64,000 nt of DNA from Bacteroidia bacterium (lineage in GTDB: Bacteria; Bacteroidota; Bacteroidia; J057): assembly GCA_033391075.1 (NCBI GenBank), contig JAWPMV010000001.1, positions 1,798,001-1,862,000 on the forward strand, given 5' to 3'. The first letter of the stretch is position 1; each line of letters begins with the position of its first letter. A model generated the notes under the pieces. The model made no database searches and was not told the DNA's origin. It was given only the letters and a program-made list of their open reading frames with translations. The position numbers were made by a program, and so were the translations under genes. This document shows positions 10,842-38,542 of the stretch, in pieces.

Positions 10842-11972
10842 ATGACAAAGAACACAGCAATCAATCATTTCATCCTCTACCGCGATCTGGTAGATCAATT
10901 GGGAGAGGCTTTTGAGAAAAGAGCTCGCTCCTATGACGAACAAGCCTTATTTGTAGATCAAAATTATAAGGAGTTAAAAAAGTATCGCTTCTTTTCCCTA
11001 CTGGTTCCCCGTGAATTGGGAGGTCCGGGTCTGGCCTTCGAAGAGGTATCTTTGCTTCTGAGAAAAATGGCAGGCTATTGTCCCTCTACTGCTCTGGCTT
11101 TGTCAATGCATCAACACCTGATTGCCGCCAATGTATGGAAATACAAACAAGGCAAAGGAGGAGAAGAAATCCTGAGAAGGGTAGGGGAAGATCAGCTCAT
11201 TTTGGTAAGTACAGGTGCAAAAGACTGGCTGGATTCCAATGGGAAATTGGAGAAAGTAGAAGGTGGGTATCTCATGAGTGGAAGTAAATATTTTGCAAGC
11301 CAATCAGCGGTAGGAGATATGCTGGTTACTTCGGCTCCTTTTGAAGATGAAAATCTGGGAACACAAGTATATCACTTTGCCATTCCATTTGCTTCCGAAG
11401 GCCTGAGTTTGCTCGATGATTGGGATACTCTGGGTATGCGTGGGACGGGATCTCAAACGGTAAAGCTGGATAAGGTCTTCATCCCGGAAGCGGCGATCAA
11501 ATTGAGAAGAAAGCAGGGGGAATTTCATCCCGTGTGGAATGTAGTATTAGGTGTAGCCATGCCCTTGATCATGTCTGTCTACACGGGTATAGCAGAAAAG
11601 GCATTTAAGACCAGTTTGGAATTGGTAAAAAATGCTCCTCGTAGCAAGGCCTATACTTCTTCTTCCATCGGGGAAATGAGCAATCAATTGAGCCAGGTAC
11701 AGATCATGTTGGAAGATATGCTTCGCATCAATAACAATTTTGATTTCCAACCCAATGATGAAATTGCTCACAAGATTCTAAGTAGAAAGACCTTGTTGGC
11801 AGAAGGAGCCATAGAATTGTTAAGACAAAGCATGGAAGTATGTGGAGGCCTGGCCTACCGTAAATCACTTGGCCTGGAACGCTTGTTTAGAGATGTACAG
11901 GCAGCGCGATATCATCCCCTTTCAAAAAGAGATCAGCATGCTTTCTCGGGAAGTTATTTGCTGAGGAAATAA
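10842..11972 (+). CDS. Acyl-CoA dehydrogenase family protein
   Basis: This is a 376-residue flavoprotein with the three-part acyl-CoA dehydrogenase fold. The N-terminal helical domain (about 1-115) contains FFSLLVPRELGGPGL and CPSTALALSMHQH. The beta domain (about 115-225) contains STGAKDWLDSNG, GYLMSGSKYFASQS and DWDTLGMRGTGSQTVKLDKV. The C-terminal helices contain ELLRQSMEVCGGLAYRKSLGLERLFRDVQAARYHPL. The MRGTGS motif contacts FAD. Members oxidise acyl-CoA thioesters, but some act on other substrates (for example in sulfur or nitro-compound metabolism); the substrate here is not evident. It appears monocistronic, with a possible -7 element upstream. Confidence 0.88.
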   Translation: MTKNTAINHFILYRDLVDQLGEAFEKRARSYDEQALFVDQNYKELKKYRFFSLLVPRELGGPGLAFEEVSLLLRKMAGYCPSTALALSMHQHLIAANVWKYKQGKGGEEILRRVGEDQLILVSTGAKDWLDSNGKLEKVEGGYLMSGSKYFASQSAVGDMLVTSAPFEDENLGTQVYHFAIPFASEGLSLLDDWDTLGMRGTGSQTVKLDKVFIPEAAIKLRRKQGEFHPVWNVVLGVAMPLIMSVYTGIAEKAFKTSLELVKNAPRSKAYTSSSIGEMSNQLSQVQIMLEDMLRINNNFDFQPNDEIAHKILSRKTLLAEGAIELLRQSMEVCGGLAYRKSLGLERLFRDVQAARYHPLSKRDQHAFSGSYLLRK

Positions 11973-11980
11973 AGAATTTG

Positions 11981-12075
11981 GACTTATGGTAAAGGCATTT
12001 CATTGAACAGTATATCACATTACATTTCAGTAGTGTGGGAACTTCATAATGTAGAGCATTCTTTTGCCATAAGTC
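11981..12075. other. Long-range inverted repeat downstream of acyl-CoA dehydrogenase gene
   Basis: GACTTATGG (11981-11989) is exactly complementary to CCATAAGTC (12067-12075), enclosing about 77 bases, and the second arm is followed by TTTTATC. It starts 8 bases past the stop codon and could be part of a terminator structure, although the large loop makes that uncertain. Confidence 0.3.
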
Positions 12076-12148
12076 TTTTATCTATCAGCATAATTCTCTG
12101 AGATTAGCCCTATTAGGAATTCTATAGCCTTTCCAATAGATTTAGTAA

Positions 12149-12748
12149 ATGGAGGAGTGGAAAGACATAGAATTGTTTTCGGCAATTAAGGGTGGGGATA
12201 AAAAGGCATTATCTGTACTTTTTTTGAGACATTACGATTTTCTTAAGCATTATGGATTACGAATTTCTCCTTCTCCTGAAGTAGTTGAAGAATGCGTACA
12301 AGAGTTGTTTCTCTATATTTTCGAAGCCCATGATCGTTTGGGTGATGTAAAACAGCTAAAAGCCTATTTATTTAGTTCCCTCAGACGGCGAATACTTGAA
12401 AAACTGAGCAAGGAAAGAAAGCAGAAAGATGCAGGCCTGGAATTACCTGTTCTTACAGCTATTCAGTTTTCAGCGGATGACCTCCGTATGCAGGAAGCAA
12501 GCCAACAACATATTCAAGAAGCATTAACTCAAGCTTTGAATGAGTTACCCTGGCGTCAAAGAGAAGCCATATATTTGCGTTATTACAATGGCCTGCGTAC
12601 CAAAGAAATTGCCGAAATCATGGGGGTAGCAAATCAGACCATCTTGAATACGCTCTACCAAGCCTTGAAAAAAATTCGAAAGAACAAGCAGCTAAAAAAA
12701 TTCTTTGGGATCACCTCCTCATTATTAGTGATTCTGGGCCTGTCCTAG
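12149..12748 (+). CDS. ECF-type RNA polymerase sigma factor
   Basis: This is a 199-residue sigma-70 family factor of the extracytoplasmic-function class. Region 2 (about 18-85) has LFLRHYDFLKHYGLRI, VEECVQELFLYIFEAH and QLKAYLFSSLRRRIL. Region 4 (about 135-185) has LPWRQREAIYLRYYNGL, TKEIAEIMGVANQTILNTLY and QALKKIRKNKQ. A hydrophobic C-terminal tail (FFGITSSLLVILGLS) is unusual and may associate with the membrane. It heads the sigma - FecR - TonB receptor - beta-helix locus. In such loci, signals from the receptor release the sigma factor from FecR and induce the receptor operon. Confidence 0.93.
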   Translation: MEEWKDIELFSAIKGGDKKALSVLFLRHYDFLKHYGLRISPSPEVVEECVQELFLYIFEAHDRLGDVKQLKAYLFSSLRRRILEKLSKERKQKDAGLELPVLTAIQFSADDLRMQEASQQHIQEALTQALNELPWRQREAIYLRYYNGLRTKEIAEIMGVANQTILNTLYQALKKIRKNKQLKKFFGITSSLLVILGLS

Positions 12749-12883
12749 ACGAATTTTCCCCACTCGATTAGTTTTCTCATTTTTTTTCCAAAAAACAATA
12801 GTATAAAAAGGGACCAAGTCCTTCTTATTAAATAACCCGTCTATCTAACACGGCGGGAATGACTATTGGCTGGATTAAAAAAC

Positions 12884-13915
12884 ATGAATTTAAACGAGGA
12901 GCAAAAAGTACTACTGGAACAATGGCTTGAAGACCAAAGCTTCATCAATTGGGCTTTGCAAAGAGACGAAAAAGACGCTTCAATGTGGGAACACTATTTC
13001 AATGATCATCCGCATCACTGGGAACTGGCAAAGGAAGGTAGAACCTTGGTATTGGGTATTCCTTTTAAAGACATTCAGGTTGATCCAAGCTCAGGTCAAG
13101 AAGCTTTGAACCGCTTAATAAATCGAATAGAAGATAGCCCTTCTGCACATATACAGCCTCTTAAACCCCAAACTGTCAGCTTATGGAAACCCTGGACATT
13201 GGTGGCCTCAATCAGCATTTTTATGCTTTTTTCTGGCCTTGCCTATTTCCAGTTTTTCCATCACACAGAAATCATGTTGGCTACGACATACGGCCAGCAA
13301 TTGGAAACATACCTTCCTGATGGATCTAAGGTTACCCTTAATGCCAATTCCAGCCTGAGATACAATACGCGAAATCCCCGAAGAGTATGGTTGGAGGGAG
13401 AAGCCTTTTTTGAAGTAAAAAAAATTCCGGAAACCGATGAAGATTTTCAGGTACTGACAGAGGATTTGACCGTGAATGTGTTAGGAACTTCCTTTAATGT
13501 TAATACCCGAAATGACCAAACCAAAGTATTTCTAGAAGAAGGAAAGGTAAGGCTGAAAGTTGAGAATCCTGCTACAGATTTCATTGAAATGGATCCGGGT
13601 GATCTCATTGCCTATTCCAAGAAGCAAAATAAGCTCAAGGAGAACCAAAAAAATGCTTCTGTGCTTGAAAACGCTTACTGGAAGGAAGGTACGTTGATTT
13701 TCAATGATACGCCTTTACCCCATGCCTTATTCGAAATAGAAGACATATATGGAATCCAGTTTGTGTGGCAGTCTGAGGAGCTCAAAAAAGAGATTATTTC
13801 CGGAGGGGTTCCCATCAAAGATTTGGACGTAACTCTGCAAACCTTGAGTGAAGTCTATGGGATCAGGATAAGATCGGAAGGGAAAAGATATTTCATCGAC
13901 AAAAAAGCTGAATAA
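12884..13915 (+). CDS. FecR-family anti-sigma factor
   Basis: This protein of about 343 residues is a transmembrane anti-sigma regulator. The ATG at 12884 is preferred over the TTG that opens the frame at 12866. The cytoplasmic N-terminus (about 1-100) would hold the sigma factor. One membrane segment lies at about 102-124. The periplasmic FecR domain follows, with TTYGQQLETYLPDGSKVTLN, RRVWLEGEAFFEVKK and VNVLGTSFNVNTRNDQTKVF. The C-terminal DUF4974 part includes HALFEIEDIYGIQFVW. It would sense the receptor's N-terminal STN domain across the periplasm. It lies between its sigma factor and receptor genes. Confidence 0.94.
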   Translation: MNLNEEQKVLLEQWLEDQSFINWALQRDEKDASMWEHYFNDHPHHWELAKEGRTLVLGIPFKDIQVDPSSGQEALNRLINRIEDSPSAHIQPLKPQTVSLWKPWTLVASISIFMLFSGLAYFQFFHHTEIMLATTYGQQLETYLPDGSKVTLNANSSLRYNTRNPRRVWLEGEAFFEVKKIPETDEDFQVLTEDLTVNVLGTSFNVNTRNDQTKVFLEEGKVRLKVENPATDFIEMDPGDLIAYSKKQNKLKENQKNASVLENAYWKEGTLIFNDTPLPHALFEIEDIYGIQFVWQSEELKKEIISGGVPIKDLDVTLQTLSEVYGIRIRSEGKRYFIDKKAE

Positions 13916-13951
13916 TACTTTTACGACTACTATTAAATAACACCTAGACGT

Positions 13952-16900
13952 ATGGAGAAAAAACTACTACATCGGCGATTTTTTAAAAAATCATGGTTAT
14001 TAGTATTCCTGTTTTGGATGTTAATGGTCCCCCTAGATGCCAAAACCATCAGGGCTCAGCTACAACCCTTAAGTGAAGTAATAGATCAGATCAGCGAAAA
14101 ATACCAGGTGATCATAACGTATGATTCCAGGTTATTGTCCAAAATCAACATTCACTTTGAGTTTAGAGAGGGAGAAGAAATAGAGTCAGCTGTCAATCGC
14201 TCTTTAGAAAAAACAGGATTGAAGTACAAACAACTTACGGATAAATATTATATCGTCTTTAAAGAGGATCAAACAAGCCAGAAGAAAATAAGGAAAATAG
14301 CACGCAAATTTGAGCAAATCCAGAAAATCGAGGAGAGCGAGTCTCTTATTGTACAGAAAAGTACCAAAGATTCTATAGCTTATCTGAGTAAGGTAATTCT
14401 TCCAGCGAAAAAACAGGTTTCTGCGCGGACAATCTTTGGGGCAGTTAGCGCAGAATTGGGCAATATTACAGGAAGCGTTGTTGACAAAGTTTCCGGGGAA
14501 AATATTTCATTTGCAAATGTTCGATTGGAGGGAACAAGTCTTGGAGCATCTACGGATGTTGAAGGTGCATTCATTATTCAACGGGTTCCTGCTGGAGATT
14601 ATAATTTGATTACCACATATATTGGTTATATAGATCAAAAAACACCCGTTACTGTTGTTGCAGGTACCCCACTAAAAATTAAGGTAGAATTAGAGTATGC
14701 CGGTGTTCAAACTGAAGAAGTTGAAATATCTGCCCAGGTTTCAGGCCAGATGAATGCTATCAACGAACAGTTGTCCTCAAATACGATCAAAAATGTGGTG
14801 TCATCAGATCGAATACGAGATGTTCCAGATCAGAATGCTGCAGAATCAGTATCAAGGTTGCCCGGATTATCTTTGATCAGAAATGGGGGAGAGGGCCAAA
14901 AGGTTGCCGTTCGGGGTATATCTCCCCAATATAATGTGACGATGGTAAATGGGGTGCGTATGCAGTCAACTGACCGCAATGATCGCAGTGTGGATTTGAA
15001 TATGATCGCTCCCAATGTGCTTAGTGGGATTGAAGTTACCAAAGCCTTGACTGCGGATATGGATGCAGATGCAGTGGGGGGAACAGTTAACCTAAAAATT
15101 GCAAAAGCCAGAGATGGGGCACAAGGTAATATTTCTGTGCAAGCTGGCTATGGCTCGACGGGAGATACCTATGGGAATTATAGAGTAAGTGGTTTCCTAA
15201 GTAATCGATTTTTCAAGAAGAAATTTGGGATTCAGGTTAATGGTTATTTGGATAATTCCAATAGAAATTCAGATAACCTAAATGTCGGATATGCAATAAA
15301 TGAAGAAGATTCCTTGGAAGCAGGTTTTATTCCGATCGACCTTAATCGAGTGAGCATAAGCGACCGCGTTACGGATAGACAAAGATTAGGAGGGGGATTG
15401 ATTCTTGACTACCAATTTAAAAATGGCTCACTCCTTATGAATAATTTCATAAGCAATCTTTCTCAAGATCAGGTAGAACAATCAAATTCTCTTTCACTCA
15501 TCGGTAATCAGTGGTCTGGATTTGCAGCAGTAAGAGAATTTAGCAATACGATGCTTAGCAATGCGATTCAGGGGGAATTTAAGTTTGCAAAGTTTAGCAT
15601 GGATTTTTCTGTCTCAAATTCTATTTCCAAACAATATACGCCGGGTGATCTGCGCATGAATATTGGCATAGCTCAGAACGAAGCTGGATTTACAACTCCT
15701 TCATTGACTGATCCGCTTAAGGCATCACCCGGTGAGTTGCTAAATGCCGCTGTGATTATACCAGAACCTAATGCGAAGCGTGTGACCCGTTTTTACACCC
15801 TGGAACGGGATGTGGTTGAATCCGCTCAGGAAGCCGTTCTAAATTTCCAGGTTCCTTTTAGCTTTTCAAAAGCAGTTTCTGGTACATTAAAATTTGGGGG
15901 AAAGTATGTCCGCAACTCCAGAGACAATGATGAGACACAAAATTTTAGTCAGCCAGACAGGAACTTCCTGGGGGAAGAATTTGTACGAGTATTGAAAGAT
16001 TCTCTTTGGACGGATTTGGGGCTTACAAATCTTGATCAGAACCTGGGCATCAGGGCCTTTTTGTTTGAACAACCCAGCTATGATGTTGGGGATTTTCTTT
16101 CTGGAAATGAGGGAATTAATAACTTCTTTTACAAAGCTGATATCCAGAAGATGAAGCGATATGAAGAATTAGCCATTTATAGTGGTTACTATCCCATTGA
16201 CGGAAAAGAGTCCGCGCAGTATGATTATCTTTATGAAAGAGATTTGTTGGCATTTTATGGGATGGCAGAGATTAAAGTTGGTAAATATGTCACGCTTTTT
16301 CCCGGTATACGGTATGAAGATTTTGCCTTCCTTTACAATTCATTCTTTACAGAAAGGTTTGGCCCTAATCCAGAAGATTTTAGCAATGAAGCCTTAGAAT
16401 CAAATGATATTAATGGCCAAAACTGGTTTCCGCAGCTTCATGTCCGTGTAAAACCTACAGATTGGCTGGATATCCGTTTGGCCAGGACCAAAAGTATTAT
16501 ATATCCAGATTACCGGGCCATTTCCCCTTATATATATTTTGATTCCTTCAGCAGCCCTGCCCTGGAATTAGGAAATCCTGAACTTGTACCGGCCCTATCA
16601 CAAAATTATGATATTTATGCTTCGGTTTATAAAAATAAAATTGGATTATTTACAGCCGGATTTTTTTACAAGGAAATAGACAATCTGATTGTTAGATCAA
16701 GTTTTAGGAGCAAAGATTCTGAAACAGTCAATGATAGGTTCTCTTTGCCACAAACTCAGCAGACCGTCATTAACACCTGGATCAATTTGGATGCGACCTC
16801 TTCCGTAAGGGGCTTTGAGCTGGACTGGCAAACACATTTTTATTATCTGCCTTCTTTCCTCAAAGGCTTTGTGCTAAATGTGAATTATACACATATCAAC

Positions 16901-32305: not shown

Positions 32306-32443
32306 GATAAAATAATGAATGCGCTCATGCAAGCTAAGGCCAAATGTTTACAGGATCAATACACCCGCAATAGAATGACTCAAAGGGATTATTTAAACCA
32401 CTTCCTGAAGAATAGCCAGATTTGTTGTTGAATATCCAATATG

Positions 32444-32478
32444 AAAATGCTTCTGGACAAAGCCCAGAAGCATTTTTT
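32444..32478. terminator. Intrinsic terminator between VOC lipoprotein and glycosyltransferase genes
   Basis: A perfect 13-base stem, AAAATGCTTCTGG (32444-32456) with CCAGAAGCATTTT (32464-32476), has a 7-base loop. The T run (six T) follows on the plus strand; on the minus strand the arm itself ends in TTTT. It closes the subtilase-glycosyltransferase transcript about 150 bases past its stop codon and may also serve a plus-strand transcript. The rest of 32306-32623 shows only a 38-codon plus-strand frame of doubtful value (32315-32431). Confidence 0.8.
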
Positions 32479-32623
32479 GGATACAATAATTCTCGGAATA
32501 GCTCGAAGATTTCCTGAGCCTGGAATGAGGGGATTCCTAAGGAATCCATTATCTCAACTCATGGCAGTATTTTTTCCTGATTCCGACACTTGATGTATGC
32601 TTCAAATTTGATATTGAAGGCCA

Positions 32624-33544
32624 TCAAGTGAAGTGAGAAATTACGGATGGTTTCCCCTGCAATTGAAAACTTTGAAAAAACCAATCATCATCTCTTACCC
32701 GCACTTGATTTAGGGCTTTTCGCATTTCAAATACATCACTTTTCTGAATGCGATCCATAACCTTCTTTAAGTGAGGATATGAAGCCAGTGTCTCCATGAT
32801 TTTGTCAATACGCTTTTTGGAAAAATGAAAATTTATCAGCCTAAGAAAATTGTAGACTACATCTTCTTGTAGAACCTCAAAGCTGCGAGATTGACGAAAA
32901 TAATGCTGGATGGTAATTTTGGGATCTACTAATACGGAGTATCCCAATACCCAACTTCTTAAGCAGATTTCTAAATCTTCAGATCCCCAACTCTCAAATC
33001 CATCATCATACTGTCCTATGTTGAAGAAAGTATCTTTCCTAAATGCCTGGCAGCCACCAGGAGTTAAGGCCATTTTATAGGGTTCATCAGCATCTATCGG
33101 AGTAAACCAGGTAAATCGCATGGCCTTATCGTTTACCCACATCATGCCACATCCTTTGGGTTCAGTAGCGTCTAATTTTGTAAATGTAGGTCCAACAACA
33201 GCTACTTCCCTTCTGTTCAAACTTGTGGCAAAACGATCCAGCCAATTGCTGGATACCTTGCAATGAGCATCTAAAAAAAGCAGATATTCTCCCTTTGCAT
33301 GTTTGGCTCCTAAATTTCGTGCTTTTGCGACTCCCTGGTTTTTCGTTCTGATTAAGCTGATGTGCCTTTCATCAGCTTCATATCGATCACAACTGCCATC
33401 AGTAGAACCATCATCAACAATTATAATTTCAAATCCTGCAGGATAATCTGTATTACTCAATATGCTATCAACAGTCATATGTAGCATTTTGCCTTCATCC
33501 CTGGTCGGAATGACAATGCTGAAAAATTTAGCTTTGGTCTGCAT
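32624..33544 (-). CDS. GT27-like (polypeptide GalNAc-transferase-type) glycosyltransferase
   Basis: This is a 306-residue soluble GT-A fold glycosyltransferase, annotated by family as GT2. Its motifs follow those of animal polypeptide GalNAc-transferases: IVIPTRDEG, VDDGSTDGS (D44/D45), the DxH metal motif in LFLDAHCKVSSNWL (D92, H94), TPGGCQAFRKD (162-170), ESWGSEDLEICLRSW (E185 onward) and HYFRQS (H214). The ricin-type lectin domain of animal enzymes is missing; a helical tail of about 85 residues replaces it. It lies 10 bases after a subtilase gene that carries a Thr-rich tandem repeat, so O-glycosylation of that repeat is the natural hypothesis. No signal peptide or membrane segment is present. 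Donor sugar is unknown. Confidence 0.85.
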   Translation of the reverse strand: MQTKAKFFSIVIPTRDEGKMLHMTVDSILSNTDYPAGFEIIIVDDGSTDGSCDRYEADERHISLIRTKNQGVAKARNLGAKHAKGEYLLFLDAHCKVSSNWLDRFATSLNRREVAVVGPTFTKLDATEPKGCGMMWVNDKAMRFTWFTPIDADEPYKMALTPGGCQAFRKDTFFNIGQYDDGFESWGSEDLEICLRSWVLGYSVLVDPKITIQHYFRQSRSFEVLQEDVVYNFLRLINFHFSKKRIDKIMETLASYPHLKKVMDRIQKSDVFEMRKALNQVRVRDDDWFFQSFQLQGKPSVISHFT

Positions 33545-33554
33545 ATATCAGAAA

Positions 33555-35219
33555 TTATAATGATTTAAGAATAGATTGTGAGAGTCCGACATAGTAGGAT
33601 GCCTTTTCTTGACTTCCCACAATATTTGCTAATTCACTGAGGTCTTCTGAGGCAATTTCGTGCAAGTAATTCAGTTTGTTTGCCTCAAAAAGCCCCTGTA
33701 CTTCCTTGAATTCATCAAACTTGTCGATTTGAATATCTGCAAGTTCAAATAGCTTGTTTTTGAAGCGAATAAAAGGAGTTACATCTGAAAAGACTGTAAA
33801 GGGAGTTAGGGGAGTAAAGGGAGTGAACCTGGTAAAAGGTGTTAATCTTGTAAACTGAGTGAAGGGAGTGAATTCAGTAAAATGTGTAAGTTCCGTGATA
33901 GAAGTAAATGCTGTGAAGAAGGTAAATGGGGTCAAAAAGCAGAAGGTATAAATTTCGATACAGGATACCGCTTGATAGGCATCGACTCTTCCATTGCCCC
34001 AGGAATTGTTGAAGGTTCCAGGACCTAATTTGACAGCAGTATCAATAAGACACTGGCGAATAGAACTGTTGCTAAGGAAAGATCTTCTGGACCACATCAA
34101 AGCGATTAGCCCAGTCACCAGCGGGCATGCCATTGAGGTACCACTATAAAACTCATATTCCAGATCACCTGCAGCTGTTACAGAATAGGTGGGAGTAGTT
34201 GACAAAATGGAGTTCCCAGGAGCTACGACTGTTATCTCAGGACCAATATTTGAAAAATTAGATACTGTATCATCTGAATCCGTAGAACCTACTGCGATGA
34301 CTGCATCGAAATCCAGGGAGTAGGCTGCTGGAAATATTACATCTCCTCCAAAATCATTTCCGGCAGCAGCACATAGAATCATGCCATTGTCATCTGCATA
34401 TTGACAAGCATTCATTTTCGTAACATTATCTCCACCACCAGCACTGTAGTTTATGACTACTTTTAGATTGTTGAGCAAGGCATAGTCAACAATTTCTTCT
34501 ACAGCATCAGCAAAATCTGCAGAACTGCCATTTCCGTTAGCGTTTAGGGTCCGGCAAATGTAAGTGGGCGCTAGCCAGTTCATTCCCGTTACCCCTCTGC
34601 AATTATTACTTTCTGCCGCTGCAATTCCAGTTACATGTGTGCCATGTCCACGCAAATCTCTGGGGGTACCTCCATCAACAAAGTCAGTTCCCAGGATATA
34701 TCTGGATGAATTCAGGTCTTCATGGTCCAGGGCATTATTGGTAATAGAAATTCCACTATCAATTATCCCTATCAATATTCGATCAGAAGTGCCGGTCGTG
34801 ACGTCCCAGGCTCTTTCAGCATTTACCATTTCCAGGGCCCATTGCTCATTGTATCTTGAATCATTAGGTAGGATCAGCGCATCTTGGTCTACATAATCTA
34901 ACTCTGCATATTCAACTTCCTCTCTCTTTGAGAGTTCTTTGGTGAGTTTCTCTAAATCAGCTTTTTGAGATACTTTGAATAATACTCGTCGAGAAGCTTC
35001 TGTTCTGGGATAGCGAAGTACTTGTCCTCTGGGGATGACCTCACATATTTTTTGGCAAAGCTCTTCGATATTCAGGCTTTCTGATTCTTCCGGTTTTTTT
35101 AGTCTGACGATGATGCGATCGGCAAAATATTTAACCTTTCTGCGTTTCTTATCCTTTTTATTCCGGACCGTAATTTCTTTAATGTTTGCTGAGTCTTTTT
35201 GTTGATCTTTTCTTAGCAT
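33555..35219 (-). CDS. S8 subtilase with C-terminal [F/L]-T-x triplet repeat
   Basis: This protein has 554 residues from the ATG at 35219 (MLRKDQQKDS); the frame opens at 35294, but the extra 25 residues look like untranslated leader. There is no signal peptide. Residues about 1-115 form a fervidolysin-like prodomain; the subtilisin domain (about 120-425) has D154 (GIIDSG), H192 (RGHGTHVTG), N288 (AAAGNDF) and S362 (SGTSMACP). Residues 429-485 are nineteen triplets of the form F/L-T-x. A helical tail of about 69 residues follows. The glycosyltransferase gene begins 10 bases downstream. All catalytic residues are present, so it should be an active protease. Confidence 0.9.
   Translation of the reverse strand: MLRKDQQKDSANIKEITVRNKKDKKRRKVKYFADRIIVRLKKPEESESLNIEELCQKICEVIPRGQVLRYPRTEASRRVLFKVSQKADLEKLTKELSKREEVEYAELDYVDQDALILPNDSRYNEQWALEMVNAERAWDVTTGTSDRILIGIIDSGISITNNALDHEDLNSSRYILGTDFVDGGTPRDLRGHGTHVTGIAAAESNNCRGVTGMNWLAPTYICRTLNANGNGSSADFADAVEEIVDYALLNNLKVVINYSAGGGDNVTKMNACQYADDNGMILCAAAGNDFGGDVIFPAAYSLDFDAVIAVGSTDSDDTVSNFSNIGPEITVVAPGNSILSTTPTYSVTAAGDLEYEFYSGTSMACPLVTGLIALMWSRRSFLSNSSIRQCLIDTAVKLGPGTFNNSWGNGRVDAYQAVSCIEIYTFCFLTPFTFFTAFTSITELTHFTEFTPFTQFTRLTPFTRFTPFTPLTPFTVFSDVTPFIRFKNKLFELADIQIDKFDEFKEVQGLFEANKLNYLHEIASEDLSELANIVGSQEKASYYVGLSQSILKSL
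33765..33935 (-). repeat. Tandem 9-base repeat encoding 19 [FLIV]-[TSI]-x triplets
   Basis: The stretch encodes LTPFTFFTAFTSITELTH, then FTEFTPFTQFTRLTPFTR, then FTPFTPLTPFTVFSDVTP and FIR. A hydrophobic residue (mostly Phe or Leu) is at position 1 and Thr at position 2 of every triplet, with one Ser and one final Ile as the only exceptions. Position 3 varies and is often Pro. The DNA unit on the plus strand is roughly GTAAAnGGn but has diverged by silent and position-3 changes, so the period is conserved at protein level. A three-residue period could put Thr, Phe and the variable residue on separate faces of a polyproline-II-like helix. Confidence 0.93.
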
Positions 35220-35546
35220 GATTAAAAAGTTTGAGTTTGTTTGTAATTCAAAAAGGAGTAGAGGGATTTCTATCCCACCAGGGATTTTTTTCATTGATTT
35301 TAACCCTCATAAGAATCAATGAGGATATCGTAATCAATTTTATTTGTATACAAATTGATAGCAGGAGATAGCGGAAAACTATTCCTTTAGGAGAAGCAAC
35401 TATTAGTGGGGAGGGAAATTTCTGAAATGTTTAAATTCCAATTTTATCAGCACCAAGACTAACACAATTGTTACAACTTGGGTATTATTCCTAAATGGAA
35501 TTAATATATAAAACAAGAATGATATGTGGGGCCTATTTTACCTAAA
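35220..35546. other. Intergenic leader of the subtilase gene
   Basis: No gene is seen in these 327 bases between the TolC-like and subtilase genes. On the minus strand the leader holds two small hairpins: CCTCAT/ATGAGG (35306-35325) and ATCAATTT/AAATTGAT (35334-35360). The stretch 35480-35520 is very A/T-rich and is a likely promoter area. There is no clear terminator after the TolC-like gene, so read-through from the export trio is possible. Confidence 0.4.
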
Positions 35547-36770
35547 CTAGTTGAGCAAATAATCCATATAGGCATCCGTCCGAGTCAGTCCTATTTTTTG
35601 GAGGAGATCAATATAGGCTTCATAGATACTTTCCTCCATCTCAAGCATATCCAGTTTCCTATCCACCAACTGGGCTTTTCGGAAGAGCAAAAGTTCTGGA
35701 TTTTTCCACTCTGGTTCCGGGCTGTTTTCCTCCAGTTTTTGAAAATTTGCTACATTTTCCTCGAGCAATTGGTTTGAAAATTCCCAGGTGCTGATTTTTT
35801 CGAGGAGTTCGGCAGCATTCTTCTCAATTTCCAGAACGAGAAGTTGACGCTTGCTTTTTGCCTCCTGCTCACTTTTCCATTTCTCAATATTGAGTTCCCG
35901 GATTTTTGTTTTGCGAGAGCCCGAACTGGGAATTTCTATTCCGAGGCCAATGGAAAGTCTCTCCTCCAACAAATCTTCCCTGGGTCCTTGATATCGGACT
36001 TGTAAGAAATCTATGATGCGATTTTTTTCTGCTTTTTCGAGCTGTATTTCAGCATCTATGATCTCTTGTTCCAGTTGGCTTTGTTCATCTTTCAGATAGG
36101 AAGATTTTTGGTCGATTAGTAAGGATACAGATTTGCCGATCTCCTTGATCAGGATAAGTTCATTCAATTGAGGAAGAGCGAGGCCTCCGCTCAGACGCTC
36201 CAGATTTTTCTCATCTTCAAAGATTCTAAGATTGAGTTTGAATAAATCATCTTCAATATCCATGAGTTTACGCGGATTGTAGTCAGGATCCTGAAGGAGT
36301 CTGCGTGCCAGGGTTTGCTGGTCTTCCAGGATGAGTTTGAGCTCTTCTTGAAGTTCGGTTTTTCTCTTTAGCTGCTGGATATCTACAAGCTCATCTAAAA
36401 CCAGGTTTGCAATCTCCTCTTGCAATTCCTGTTGATAGAAATTGGCATCCGCCTGATTGAGCTGAATGATTCTCTTTTGAGCGCTCCGGATTGCAGGGGT
36501 AGCAGGGGTAATTCTGAAGAGGTATTCCTGGCGAGGTAAACTAAATTCATCAGTTTCAGTTCGGAGTTCCAACTTTTCAAACCAGGATGGCTTAAACTTA
36601 CCTTCCAGCAGGCTTTGTTCAAAGGCGCTTGAAATGATGCTTTCTTTTTGAATAAGCCAATCCTTTAGCGAAGGCTCATCCTGAGCGCTGGCTATTTGCA
36701 GGGAAGTGAATAGGAGCAGAACCCCCAGGATTATACTTCGCCCGGAGAATTCTTGTGTAGAAAAAAACAT
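35547..36770 (-). CDS. TolC-like outer-membrane efflux protein
   Basis: This 407-residue protein has a signal peptide (about 1-29, ending IASAQ) and long heptad-rich helices typical of TolC/OprM channel proteins: FYQQELQEEIANLVLDELVDIQQLK (about 115-140), LEQEIIDAEIQLEKAEKNRI and a C-terminal KAQLVDRKLDMLEMEESIYEA. The GLGIEIPSSGSRKTKIRELN segment is a typical outer-membrane strand region. It is slightly short for the family. It lies 21 bases after the HlyD-like gene and is the last gene of the DUF4956-HlyD-TolC trio, in which no transporter ATPase or RND pump is present. Confidence 0.78.
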   Translation of the reverse strand: MFFSTQEFSGRSIILGVLLLFTSLQIASAQDEPSLKDWLIQKESIISSAFEQSLLEGKFKPSWFEKLELRTETDEFSLPRQEYLFRITPATPAIRSAQKRIIQLNQADANFYQQELQEEIANLVLDELVDIQQLKRKTELQEELKLILEDQQTLARRLLQDPDYNPRKLMDIEDDLFKLNLRIFEDEKNLERLSGGLALPQLNELILIKEIGKSVSLLIDQKSSYLKDEQSQLEQEIIDAEIQLEKAEKNRIIDFLQVRYQGPREDLLEERLSIGLGIEIPSSGSRKTKIRELNIEKWKSEQEAKSKRQLLVLEIEKNAAELLEKISTWEFSNQLLEENVANFQKLEENSPEPEWKNPELLLFRKAQLVDRKLDMLEMEESIYEAYIDLLQKIGLTRTDAYMDYLLN

Positions 36771-36791
36771 CTGCTTATTGTTAATGGCCGC

Positions 36792-37790
36792 TTATTCAAT
36801 GATTTCTAAGCCTACTTTTTCTTTTTGGAGGAAATTGTTATTTGAGGGAATGCTTACCAAAATTTCCCTGCCATAGGTTTTCAGGTCCGGGATTTTTCGG
36901 AGTCTTTCCGGGATTTCAACTATCCGGGATCCCAATCCATTTACTCTACCTTTGCAATAGATATCTTCATCCTTGGTCGAGCGGATGATCAGGGAATCCG
37001 CTAATCCTACTTCCAGAATTTGATCTTCGTGTATATAGCCCTTGACCTGCGTAGGATTGGGTTCGTAAAAAATCATCAAGGTCTTGAATGAAGGAATATG
37101 TTCGGCTCTTTTGCAATAAATATTCCCAATCACTCCCTTAGCGGGAGCCTTTAGTTCAACCTCAACTACTTTATTATTCTGCTCAAATACATGCTCGGCT
37201 TCCAATCGTCGAATTTCAACCTGGAAAGGATTCATGCCCAGCTTTATTTCTTCCTGGATATTTTTGATCTCCAGATCAATATTTTTAAGACTCAATTGTT
37301 TTTGCTTTTCCAGAGATTCGATTTTGTCAGAGATTGGAGTATAGGTCAAATTGCTACTATCAATGCTTTTTAGGTCTTTGTATAAGCCTTCTTTAAATCT
37401 ACGTTCCTCTTCCAACTTATTGAGCTCTGTTTCAAACTCCAGGACTTTGAGTTTTCGTTTGCTTTCCAATAATGCCTGCTCACCCATTTTCTCTCTTTGC
37501 CACTGACGGGCTTTGGCAGAGAGTTCTTCAATTTGGAAATCATGATCCTCCATGCGCTCTTTGGGTTTTACCCGCTTTAGCTTGAGCAAAGGAGTTCCTA
37601 TTTCCACCTCCTGGCCCGGGATCACCATGATTTCATCCACAACGACCGGATAATTGAAATTTATTTCCGTTTCCTTATTCTCTGCAAAGCCAAAGAAAAA
37701 TACTGTCTCGCTGGTCATGAAATGGTTGAAGATGAAAATCCCTATTCCCATCACAAAAGCAACTACATAATATAGATTGAAGTATTTCAT
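36792..37790 (-). CDS. HlyD-like periplasmic adaptor
   Basis: This 332-residue membrane-fusion protein has one N-terminal anchor (about 7-26), a split biotinyl-lipoyl-like domain (VVVDEIMVIPGQEVEIGTPLLKLK and later VVEVELKAPAKGVIGNIYCK), a long coiled-coil hairpin (about 85-205) and a beta-barrel part (about 240-330, LIIRSTKDEDIYCKGRV). Such adaptors join an inner-membrane transporter to a TolC-type channel. Its ATG overlaps the stop of the DUF4956 gene (TAATG), so the two proteins are made together. That coupling suggests DUF4956 is the inner-membrane partner. Confidence 0.8.
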   Translation of the reverse strand: MKYFNLYYVVAFVMGIGIFIFNHFMTSETVFFFGFAENKETEINFNYPVVVDEIMVIPGQEVEIGTPLLKLKRVKPKERMEDHDFQIEELSAKARQWQREKMGEQALLESKRKLKVLEFETELNKLEEERRFKEGLYKDLKSIDSSNLTYTPISDKIESLEKQKQLSLKNIDLEIKNIQEEIKLGMNPFQVEIRRLEAEHVFEQNNKVVEVELKAPAKGVIGNIYCKRAEHIPSFKTLMIFYEPNPTQVKGYIHEDQILEVGLADSLIIRSTKDEDIYCKGRVNGLGSRIVEIPERLRKIPDLKTYGREILVSIPSNNNFLQKEKVGLEIIE

Positions 37791-38542
37791 TATAGTTCAG
37801 GATTAGGAATGGAAAATCTTAAACGGGCGTTTTTTATACCTGGTAAGGCATAAATCATTTCCATTAATTTAGGAGCCTCTTGCTGATCTCTCATCCAGAT
37901 ATGATAGGTAATTTCCTTGTTGTGATTGATGATGAGACTGACAGGATTTAAAAGGGGAATATTTTCGTCATCCTCCTCAGCCTGTGATTGTTGCTCGCTT
38001 GAATTGATCCGAAACTGATCAATCTTGAAGCGTTTGCAAAATTGCTGTAACAATTTCTCTACTTCTTCTTCACTGGAGTCTTTCAGGTCCAGATTGATGC
38101 GGAGATTTCCCCTGAATTGCTCTGTCCCCCAAAAGGGAGAAATGTGAAGTAAGATGGCAGCCAGACAAAAGGTAAAGGTGCCTGCGAAAGCAATGGTAAA
38201 ACCAAAAACGCCGCAGGATATACCCACAGCCAGGGAGGCAAACATATAAGTGATACTTACAGGATTGTCTAGATTGGTCCTGAATCGGATAATTGCGAGG
38301 GCTCCCAACATACCGAGGCCTCGCGCCAGCGAATCTCCCACGGCTTGCATGACAGTAGCCGCTACTATAGAAATCAGGGCCATCGCAATCATGAAATTGG
38401 CTGATTTCCCTTTGTTCCTATGGGTATATTCGTAGGTCAGGACGATCAGAGACGAAAGGAAAAAGGAACAGACTACCGCAATGATGATGCTTGTAGAAGT
38501 AGCTTGTTCTGAACTGTTTTGGGAGAAAATCGCGTCAAACAT
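37790..38542 (-). CDS. DUF4956 membrane protein
   Basis: This 250-residue protein has four predicted membrane segments within the first 135 residues and a cytoplasmic C-terminal domain (about 140-250). The family signature is clear: AVGDSLARGLGMLGALAIIRFRTNLDNP and MFASLAVGISCGVFGF. DUF4956 genes often lie beside VTC-type polyphosphate polymerase and CotH-kinase genes; here the VTC gene is absent and the only CotH gene is 10 kb away. Instead it is fused by overlap to an HlyD/TolC pair. An acidic loop (QAEEDDENIP) interrupts the C-terminal domain. The function of the family is not established. Confidence 0.85.
   Translation of the reverse strand: MFDAIFSQNSSEQATSTSIIIAVVCSFFLSSLIVLTYEYTHRNKGKSANFMIAMALISIVAATVMQAVGDSLARGLGMLGALAIIRFRTNLDNPVSITYMFASLAVGISCGVFGFTIAFAGTFTFCLAAILLHISPFWGTEQFRGNLRINLDLKDSSEEEVEKLLQQFCKRFKIDQFRINSSEQQSQAEEDDENIPLLNPVSLIINHNKEITYHIWMRDQQEAPKLMEMIYALPGIKNARLRFSIPNPEL

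Follow-up and report, generated by a model that had tools for sequence, protein, structure and literature searches.

Can a bacterium decorate the threonines of one of its own proteases with an enzyme akin to the polypeptide N-acetylgalactosamine (GalNAc) transferases of animals? The question is raised by two adjacent genes in a 64,000-nucleotide stretch of DNA, here called the window (positions 1,798,001 to 1,862,000 of contig JAWPMV010000001.1, assembly GCA_033391075.1), from a Bacteroidia bacterium with a genome of 9.49 Mb in five contigs. One gene encodes a subtilase with a regular threonine (Thr) triplet repeat and the other a glycosyltransferase (GT) resembling family GT27. To our knowledge, mucin-type O-glycosylation has been described as a trait of animals and protists. 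The analysis below indicated that the GT27 likeness of the enzyme is well supported by sequence comparison and that the repeat is no product of chance, and on balance we lean slightly toward the view that the enzyme may glycosylate the repeat.

Gene Arrangement and the Subtilase

An original prediction made from the DNA letters had claimed that an intact subtilase gene is followed 10 bases later by a glycosyltransferase gene and that both are bounded by a terminator. The elements concerned are the following:

33555..35294, minus strand: subtilase, 579 amino acids (aa) when read from the first ATG; with Met26 as the start, which gives the end used in the original prediction, 33555..35219 and 554 aa; frame intact
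33759..33938, minus strand: Thr triplet repeat of 20 in-register triplets, with 16 unbroken [F/L/I]-T-x triplets at 33792..33935
33555..33758, minus strand: C-terminal subtilase tail after the repeat; the last 76 residues are without a Pfam match
32624..33544, minus strand: GT27-like glycosyltransferase of the GT-A type, 306 aa, frame intact, without a lectin domain
32432..32484, minus strand: strong hairpin 3′ of the GT gene, a possible terminator, from RNA folding and unlisted by the consensus scanner

Both frames were found intact at this place on the minus strand, with the predicted gap of 10 bases from the subtilase gene to the GT gene, and 252 bases separate the first ATG of the subtilase from the next upstream gene. 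The terminator stood in part: folding of the minus-strand RNA placed a strong hairpin after the GT gene and ahead of its next neighbour (-28.7 kcal/mol, z -6.5), but its core is followed by only four U and the terminator consensus scanner did not list it. We infer that the subtilase and GT genes form one unit (operon).

Pfam analysis of the subtilase returned an S8 domain (PF00082, 4.7e-45), and D179, H217 and S387, which we take to be the catalytic residues, sit in the usual S8 motifs, so that the domain and all three Asp, His and Ser motifs of a peptidase S8 member are present. The N-terminal prodomain is fervidolysin-like, PADLOC matched its generic subtilase model only, and a Pfam search with the C-terminal 76 residues gave zero matches; a helix-hairpin-helix-like look of this tail was an impression only and was dropped. 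Hydropathy alone showed no signal-like stretch in either the subtilase or the GT, as against the products of four nearby genes that do have one, in line with the earlier claim of an absent signal peptide.

The Threonine Repeat Is Constrained at the Protein Level

The repeat comprises an uninterrupted series of 16 [F/L/I]-T-x triplets (aa 454-501) plus four worn ones. The regular array described earlier as nineteen F/L-T-x triplets is thus real, but its unbroken run is 16, and nineteen is reached only with the worn VFS, DVT, PFI and RFK. When the 20 triplets are placed in register, the middle position is hydrophobic in all 20 and the third position is Thr in 17, and seven repeat Thr have a Pro directly after them. 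A chance origin was discarded, since across 10,000 shuffles of the subtilase protein the longest triplet run was four, reached once; the next best run among the 93 window frames of at least 100 aa is three triplets. An origin as a DNA repeat was discarded as well, since the third codon positions of the array are mixed, varying in the Phe/Leu/Ile and Thr codons as random synonymous choice would (z -0.5, 0.3, with window codon usage). Look-alike peptides in other genomes stem from near-identical 9-nucleotide (nt) repeats. Fixed F/L/I and T alongside thoroughly mixed synonymous sites mark the repeat as constrained at the protein level, its pattern being either old or maintained by protein-level selection.

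The Glycosyltransferase Resembles GT27 by Sequence and Predicted Fold

The GT carries the motifs DAHC (residue 92), PGG (162), WGSEDLE (186) and HYFR (214), and Pfam reported five families for it, including Glycos_transf_2, close relatives of that family and Glyco_transf_7C, with no lectin domain; the claim of a GalNAc-transferase motif set lacking a lectin domain therefore held. In a phmmer search of solved structures, 17 distinct sequences matched at E ≤1e-14; 15 of them are GT27 enzymes (best 2.2e-21) and the other two chondroitin synthase. Two near bacterial GT2 relatives taken as controls behaved differently: L070 had no GT27 among its 29 matches, and L104 matched chondroitin synthase at 6.1e-34 and GT27 at 4.9e-7 at best. 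Alignment by hhalign to four GT27 rows scored 99.7%, and identity to these four fragments is 28-36%. An AlphaFold2 model built on a 64-row alignment (63 of 76 candidate references taken in) reached a mean local confidence (pLDDT) of 73.9 and a predicted template modelling score (pTM) of 0.75; a single-sequence model with pLDDT 38 was discarded. The hallmarks of ordinary GT2, a DxD motif plus best sequence matches to GT2 structures, are absent, the motif being DAH and GT27 coming first by sequence. The earlier assignment as GT27-like rather than ordinary GT2 was borne out by these solved relatives and by the difference from both GT2 controls, and we regard the GT27 likeness as well supported on sequence grounds.

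At the level of residues, D92, H94, W186, E189, H214 and R217 align in GT27 motif columns in phmmer and hhalign, the DxH motif and C-terminal metal His of GT27 being present as D92-A-H94 and H214. In addition, F144-x-W146 and F216 fall, by phmmer, Smith-Waterman and hhalign alignment of sequences, in the columns of the GT27 aromatic acceptor pocket. The counterparts in GalNAc-T2, an equivalence that rests on motif spacing, are, in the same order, D224, H226, W331, E334, H359, R362, F280, W282 and F361, residues whose roles are treated in PMC4432651 and PMC6994419. Phe280, Trp282 and Phe361 of GalNAc-T2 are reported as key for the Pro-x-Pro motif of the acceptor, and mutation of Phe361 or Trp282 as nearly abolishing activity (PMC4432651). 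By sequence, the window GT thus appears to retain all three aromatic residues used to recognise Pro close to the acceptor Thr.

Relatives and Position in the Tree

Searches with the GT covered overlapping sets that include the own genome, namely 60 relatives, 13 genomes of the family, 22 of the order, 395 of the class and 395 of the phylum, the class and phylum searches scoring five candidates per genome. Ordinary GT2 matches are abundant among these relatives. Under stricter limits in the family, order, class and phylum sets, the own gene, L010, L069 and L070 passed, and none of the latter three carries DxH. The sole DxH among 27 non-self rows and 124 high-scoring segment pairs, in L011, was set aside because it lacks W-G-x-E and HxFR and looks like another GT2 group.

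A search of the plasmid collection yielded the first true, near full-length relative, WP_233812127.1 of Cytobacillus spongiae (34% identity across 94% of the query, E 7e-49), which carries DAH, PGGC, WGHED (with the xED Asp) and HLFR. It is itself GT27-first: of its 27 matches to solved structures, the best 16 are GT27. Its locus (L196 8983..13998) lies in a 690-kb plasmid record with cotE, coiled-coil proteins and a second galactosyltransferase-type gene. Among the 15 listed neighbours there is no subtilase and no directly adjoining Thr-repeat protein; a protein with TPTPTPTG stretches is encoded near the gene. Counting the Cytobacillus enzyme, 20 DxH frames besides that of the window were collected, the others from viral contigs, where they stand in tandem or singly. 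The GT of viral contig L199 is likewise GT27-first (the best 13 of 22 matches), and the viral relatives carry E or Q instead of the xED Asp. Single-sequence scans of viral contigs found no close relative of the subtilase, the GT or the Cytobacillus GT; a GTDB scan with exact 8-residue patterns, an insensitive method, gave one ordinary GT2 only; and phage records searched with the viral enzymes of L283 and L279 gave no match.

In a 35-row tree the window GT, the Cytobacillus enzyme, nine viral domains and four animal GT27 fall on one side (support 100/99), the GT27 rows being nested inside the prokaryotic/viral side. The window GT groups with the four GT27 with a Shimodaira-Hasegawa-like approximate likelihood ratio (SH-aLRT) support of 96 in a 99-row tree and with 98/96 in a 33-row tree, so that a common clade with GT27 was found in all three trees, which have long branches and only four GT27 fragments. 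The approximately unbiased (AU) test disfavoured trees with the window GT inside one or the other half of the GT2 rows (p 0.03), the halves having been defined once the tree had been seen. The long-branch GT2 rows L011, L021, L027 and L035 were kept in the 99-row tree and left out of the 33-row tree, the AU test and the 35-row tree, and L013 and L025 were also left out of the last. We advance only tentatively the wider proposal that a prokaryotic/viral family of compact, lectin-free GT27-like enzymes glycosylates Thr-rich repeats, often encoded next to them, and that the mucin-initiating GT27 of animals arose within this family; it is possible and well short of probable.

Threonine-Rich Neighbours of GT27-Like Genes in Viral Contigs

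Viral GT27-like genes beside or near mucin-like Thr/Ser tracts were found at these places:

L279, 6374..9896
L283, 6414..8975
L233, 7298..8948
L199, 1761..9518 and 11751..14312

In L279, L283 and L233 the GT27-like gene lies directly 3′ of a gene with dense Thr tracts; the neighbour in L283 has a run of 48 Thr, and the GT27-like gene of L233 is without DxH. Several Thr-rich genes were seen near the GT27-like gene of L199, and in L294 (7386..8978) a DxH GT frame itself holds 23 Thr in 40 residues. With near-copies removed, the second of two locus-level tests compared 10 with 109 loci; a density of 16 or more Thr per 40 residues occurred at 3 of the former and 1 of the latter (p 0.0017). Its cut-offs, four for T and four for S+T, were tried in series, all giving p <0.02. 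Direct adjacency was seen for 3/16 GT27-like genes and 0/179 other GT genes (p 4.6e-4), or for 2/14 when DxH alone defined the class (p 0.005). We treat this adjacency as a lead, not proof.

Known Systems and the Proposed Reaction

A bacterial GT gene adjoining the gene of a period-three Thr-repeat protein is known from SgtA-BclA3 of Clostridioides difficile, where SgtA is reported to add single beta-linked N-acetylglucosamine (GlcNAc) residues in vitro to the threonines in the collagen-like GPT triplets of BclA3 (PMC7157674). This is a precedent for the gene arrangement, in another GT: as described there, SgtA uses UDP-GlcNAc and makes beta links, its gene lies upstream of that of the target, and the target is a collagen-like spore protein and no protease. 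The window pair is likened to it here by gene arrangement. The best matches of the window GT, by sequence and by Foldseek, are the GT27 enzymes of animals and Toxoplasma, with which it shares DxH, the metal His, W-G-x-E, HxFR, F-x-W and the Pro-pocket F. The GT2 chondroitin polymerase K4CP, the next best solved match and weaker than GT27, and the GT7 enzymes, to which the Glyco_transf_7C match points, act on sugars; GT27, GT60, K4CP and GT7 share one clade in a published GT-A tree (PMC7185993). The Cytobacillus relative has spore-coat surroundings. In the archaeon Methanobrevibacter smithii, a polypeptide N-acetylgalactosaminyltransferase has been predicted by structure (cluster u24, PMC10939349); it is compared here by description, and the consulted part of that paper mentions no Thr-repeat neighbour. 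A prokaryotic enzyme of this kind had thus already been suggested. Surveys count GT27 in bacteria by annotation (PMC12741103), and among the papers listed in the literature searches none describes, in its title or the start of its abstract, a GT27-like enzyme of bacteria with Thr repeats as its substrate.

Taking the SgtA-BclA3 analogy together with the acceptor-pocket residues, we think glycosylation of the F-T-x Thr by the GT the likeliest outcome, and hold it a little better than an even chance that the repeat of the neighbouring subtilase receives O-glycans from this GT27-like enzyme in the cytosol. The GT would be a soluble, metal-dependent (DxH plus His) member of a prokaryotic/viral branch next to the animal polypeptide GalNAc-transferases, and would attach single sugars, probably N-acetylhexosamine, to the repeat Thr in the cytosol. 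The period of three could set Thr on one face and Phe/Leu on another, and the glycan coat might keep this hydrophobic segment soluble and extended, and space or shield the protease or mark it for a partner. What we infer here extends to the acceptor, the sugar, the stereochemistry, the site of action and the role of the glycan.

Contrary Evidence and Alternative Explanations

A number of results weigh against this proposal, and they are given here together with the explanations on which they bear. Some concern the family assignment. The structural check put forward in the original prediction had a divided outcome: the matches listed by Foldseek for the GT model, 50 of 641 at E ≤0.001, were all GT27, but VIA-align put plain GT2 enzymes (Z 23.4) level with GT27 (Z 22.7), families absent from its listing not being counted as excluded, so that fold alone does not decide between GT27 and GT2. 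Home-made hidden Markov models (HMMs) scored the window GT higher as GT2 (174 bits) than as GT27 (95 bits); because the GT27 model was made of four rows and the GT2 model was broader and drawn from the GT's own BLAST relatives, we held this comparison to be biased and did not use it. The matched F-x-W belongs to a part of the model, residues 125-151, where pLDDT is <50; a MAFFT alignment with far GT2 rows puts F-x-W elsewhere; and T10, one of the four GT27 rows, is itself without F-x-W.

Other differences separate the enzyme from plain GT27. Compared with GT27, the 306-aa protein has no C-terminal ricin-type lectin domain and no membrane-anchor-like stretch, and D190 keeps the xED Asp (WGSED), a position at which three of the four GT27 rows have N and one has Q. 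With D190 kept and the lectin domain missing, the window GT lies outside GT27 proper, yet it may still work like GT27. The earlier GT27-like label thus stands as regards the motifs and, by sequence, the acceptor pocket, but not in the sense of a plain GT27 enzyme. Since the xED Asp is described as the base in most inverting GT-A enzymes (PMC7185993), the window GT may be inverting, and a variant of our proposal is that the GT is directed to peptides and GT27-like by ancestry but transfers another sugar, beta-GlcNAc or alike, with inversion. Besides D190, the xED Asp of the Cytobacillus enzyme and the beta-linked product that SgtA makes from UDP-GlcNAc on peptides (PMC7157674) speak for it; the Asp is, however, reported as kept but unused in some retaining families, DxH is reported to stand for DxD in two families of polypeptide enzymes, GT27 and GT60 (PMC7185993), and viral relatives show E or Q instead of the Asp. 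We regard this variant as a possibility of some weight, though not a probable one.

The pairing itself was sought in other genomes, as the original prediction had advised, by looking for co-occurrence with repeat subtilases. No second repeat plus tail, and no second pair, was found in the 60 relatives, the 395 phylum genomes or the plasmid collection (the last by BLAST with the low-complexity filter on); thus the subtilase shows no conserved pairing in the searchable set, an outcome that the original prediction had named among those that would refute it. Weak matches to repeat or tail (E ≤1) occurred in 26 of the 60 relatives, own genome included. A triplet-run pattern scan of 100 loci picked out, outside the own gene, only L072/L097, L074 and L076. 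Inspection of the weakly matching L072, L073, L082, L093, L099, L101 and L102 revealed nothing related, the other loci being covered by the pattern scan only. Six other phylum genomes with matches were set aside as 9-nt simple repeats, except for a GTGFTR frame in G308. This frame (L195 273..2594) encodes a 773-aa protein that by eye resembles CHAT peptidases and carries roughly ten GTGFTR repeats in its central part; on its 7.3-kb contig no such GT neighbour was recognised by eye. As for the GT, no GT27-type match was obtained in other genomes of the family, order, class or phylum at the limits set. Among the viral contigs, the first locus-level test, which included near-copies, gave p 0.26 (7 DxH against 73 other loci), and a fresh test on 44 unseen contigs, with the criterion fixed beforehand, found 0/9 adjacent for GT27-like genes and 0/67 for others; pooled, adjacency amounts to 3/25 versus 0/246 (p 7e-4). 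Support for the pairing of GT and repeat is indirect and mixed.

These results bear on a second explanation, in which the target of the GT is a surface glycan or a different protein, its place beside the subtilase being accidental. The absence of a conserved pair fits it, as do the 35 GT2-type matches in the genome and the Cytobacillus homologue amid spore-coat and sugar genes with no directly adjoining Thr-repeat protein among those listed. It is opposed by the spacing of 10 bases, by the aromatics of the acceptor pocket, as judged by sequence, and by the Thr-rich neighbours of GT27-like genes in some viral contigs, and we find it rather doubtful.

The repeat raises points of its own, being far more hydrophobic than mucin repeats and reaching at its densest 14 Thr in 40 residues, below the 16-in-40 cut-off of the pairing tests. 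It could be a naked structural or aggregating element, a rod or a contact with membrane or partner, unrelated to the GT. If either face is more strictly conserved, it is the hydrophobic one (20/20 against 17/20 for Thr), and for this reason we rated the explanation slightly higher; no Ser or Val replaces Thr inside the 16-triplet run, although packing alone should allow it, with one Ser following the run, and altogether we think a naked element unlikely. A recent, functionless expansion of 9-nt DNA is highly improbable, for although short frames of related genomes do hold such repeats, the fixed F/L/I and T amid fully mixed synonymous positions already contradict it.

Flanking Genes and Further Observations

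Upstream of the subtilase on the minus strand, 35547..38542 holds three genes, for a TolC-like protein and an HlyD-like adaptor (both by eye, without Pfam match) and a DUF4956 protein (by Pfam), which are possibly part of an export set; such a set could bear on how a subtilase with no signal peptide leaves the cell. Just 5′ of the first subtilase ATG, at 35297..35360, inverted repeats were seen by eye, one stem enclosing the ATG, together with the palindrome TTTGTATACAAA. Elsewhere in the own genome, L101 4215..4904 is a frame of two long near-identical repeats (VSGISQSPNETVSYTCSFEVYSIARRQ...).

Significance

Returning to glycosylation of the repeat, the window GT is a GT27-like, probably protein-directed enzyme outside GT27 proper, with the neighbouring protein as its probable target. 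We know of no bacterial protease with a tail that serves as a dedicated O-glycan carrier, and such a tail, if real, would be new. A clade of bacterial and viral enzymes falling together with GT27, their genes in part beside Thr-rich ones, would supply an outgroup for GT27 and make its origin testable, and it may offer small enzymes for making O-glycopeptides. The GT27-like transferase of this bacterium hints that mucin-type protein decoration has bacterial and viral cousins.

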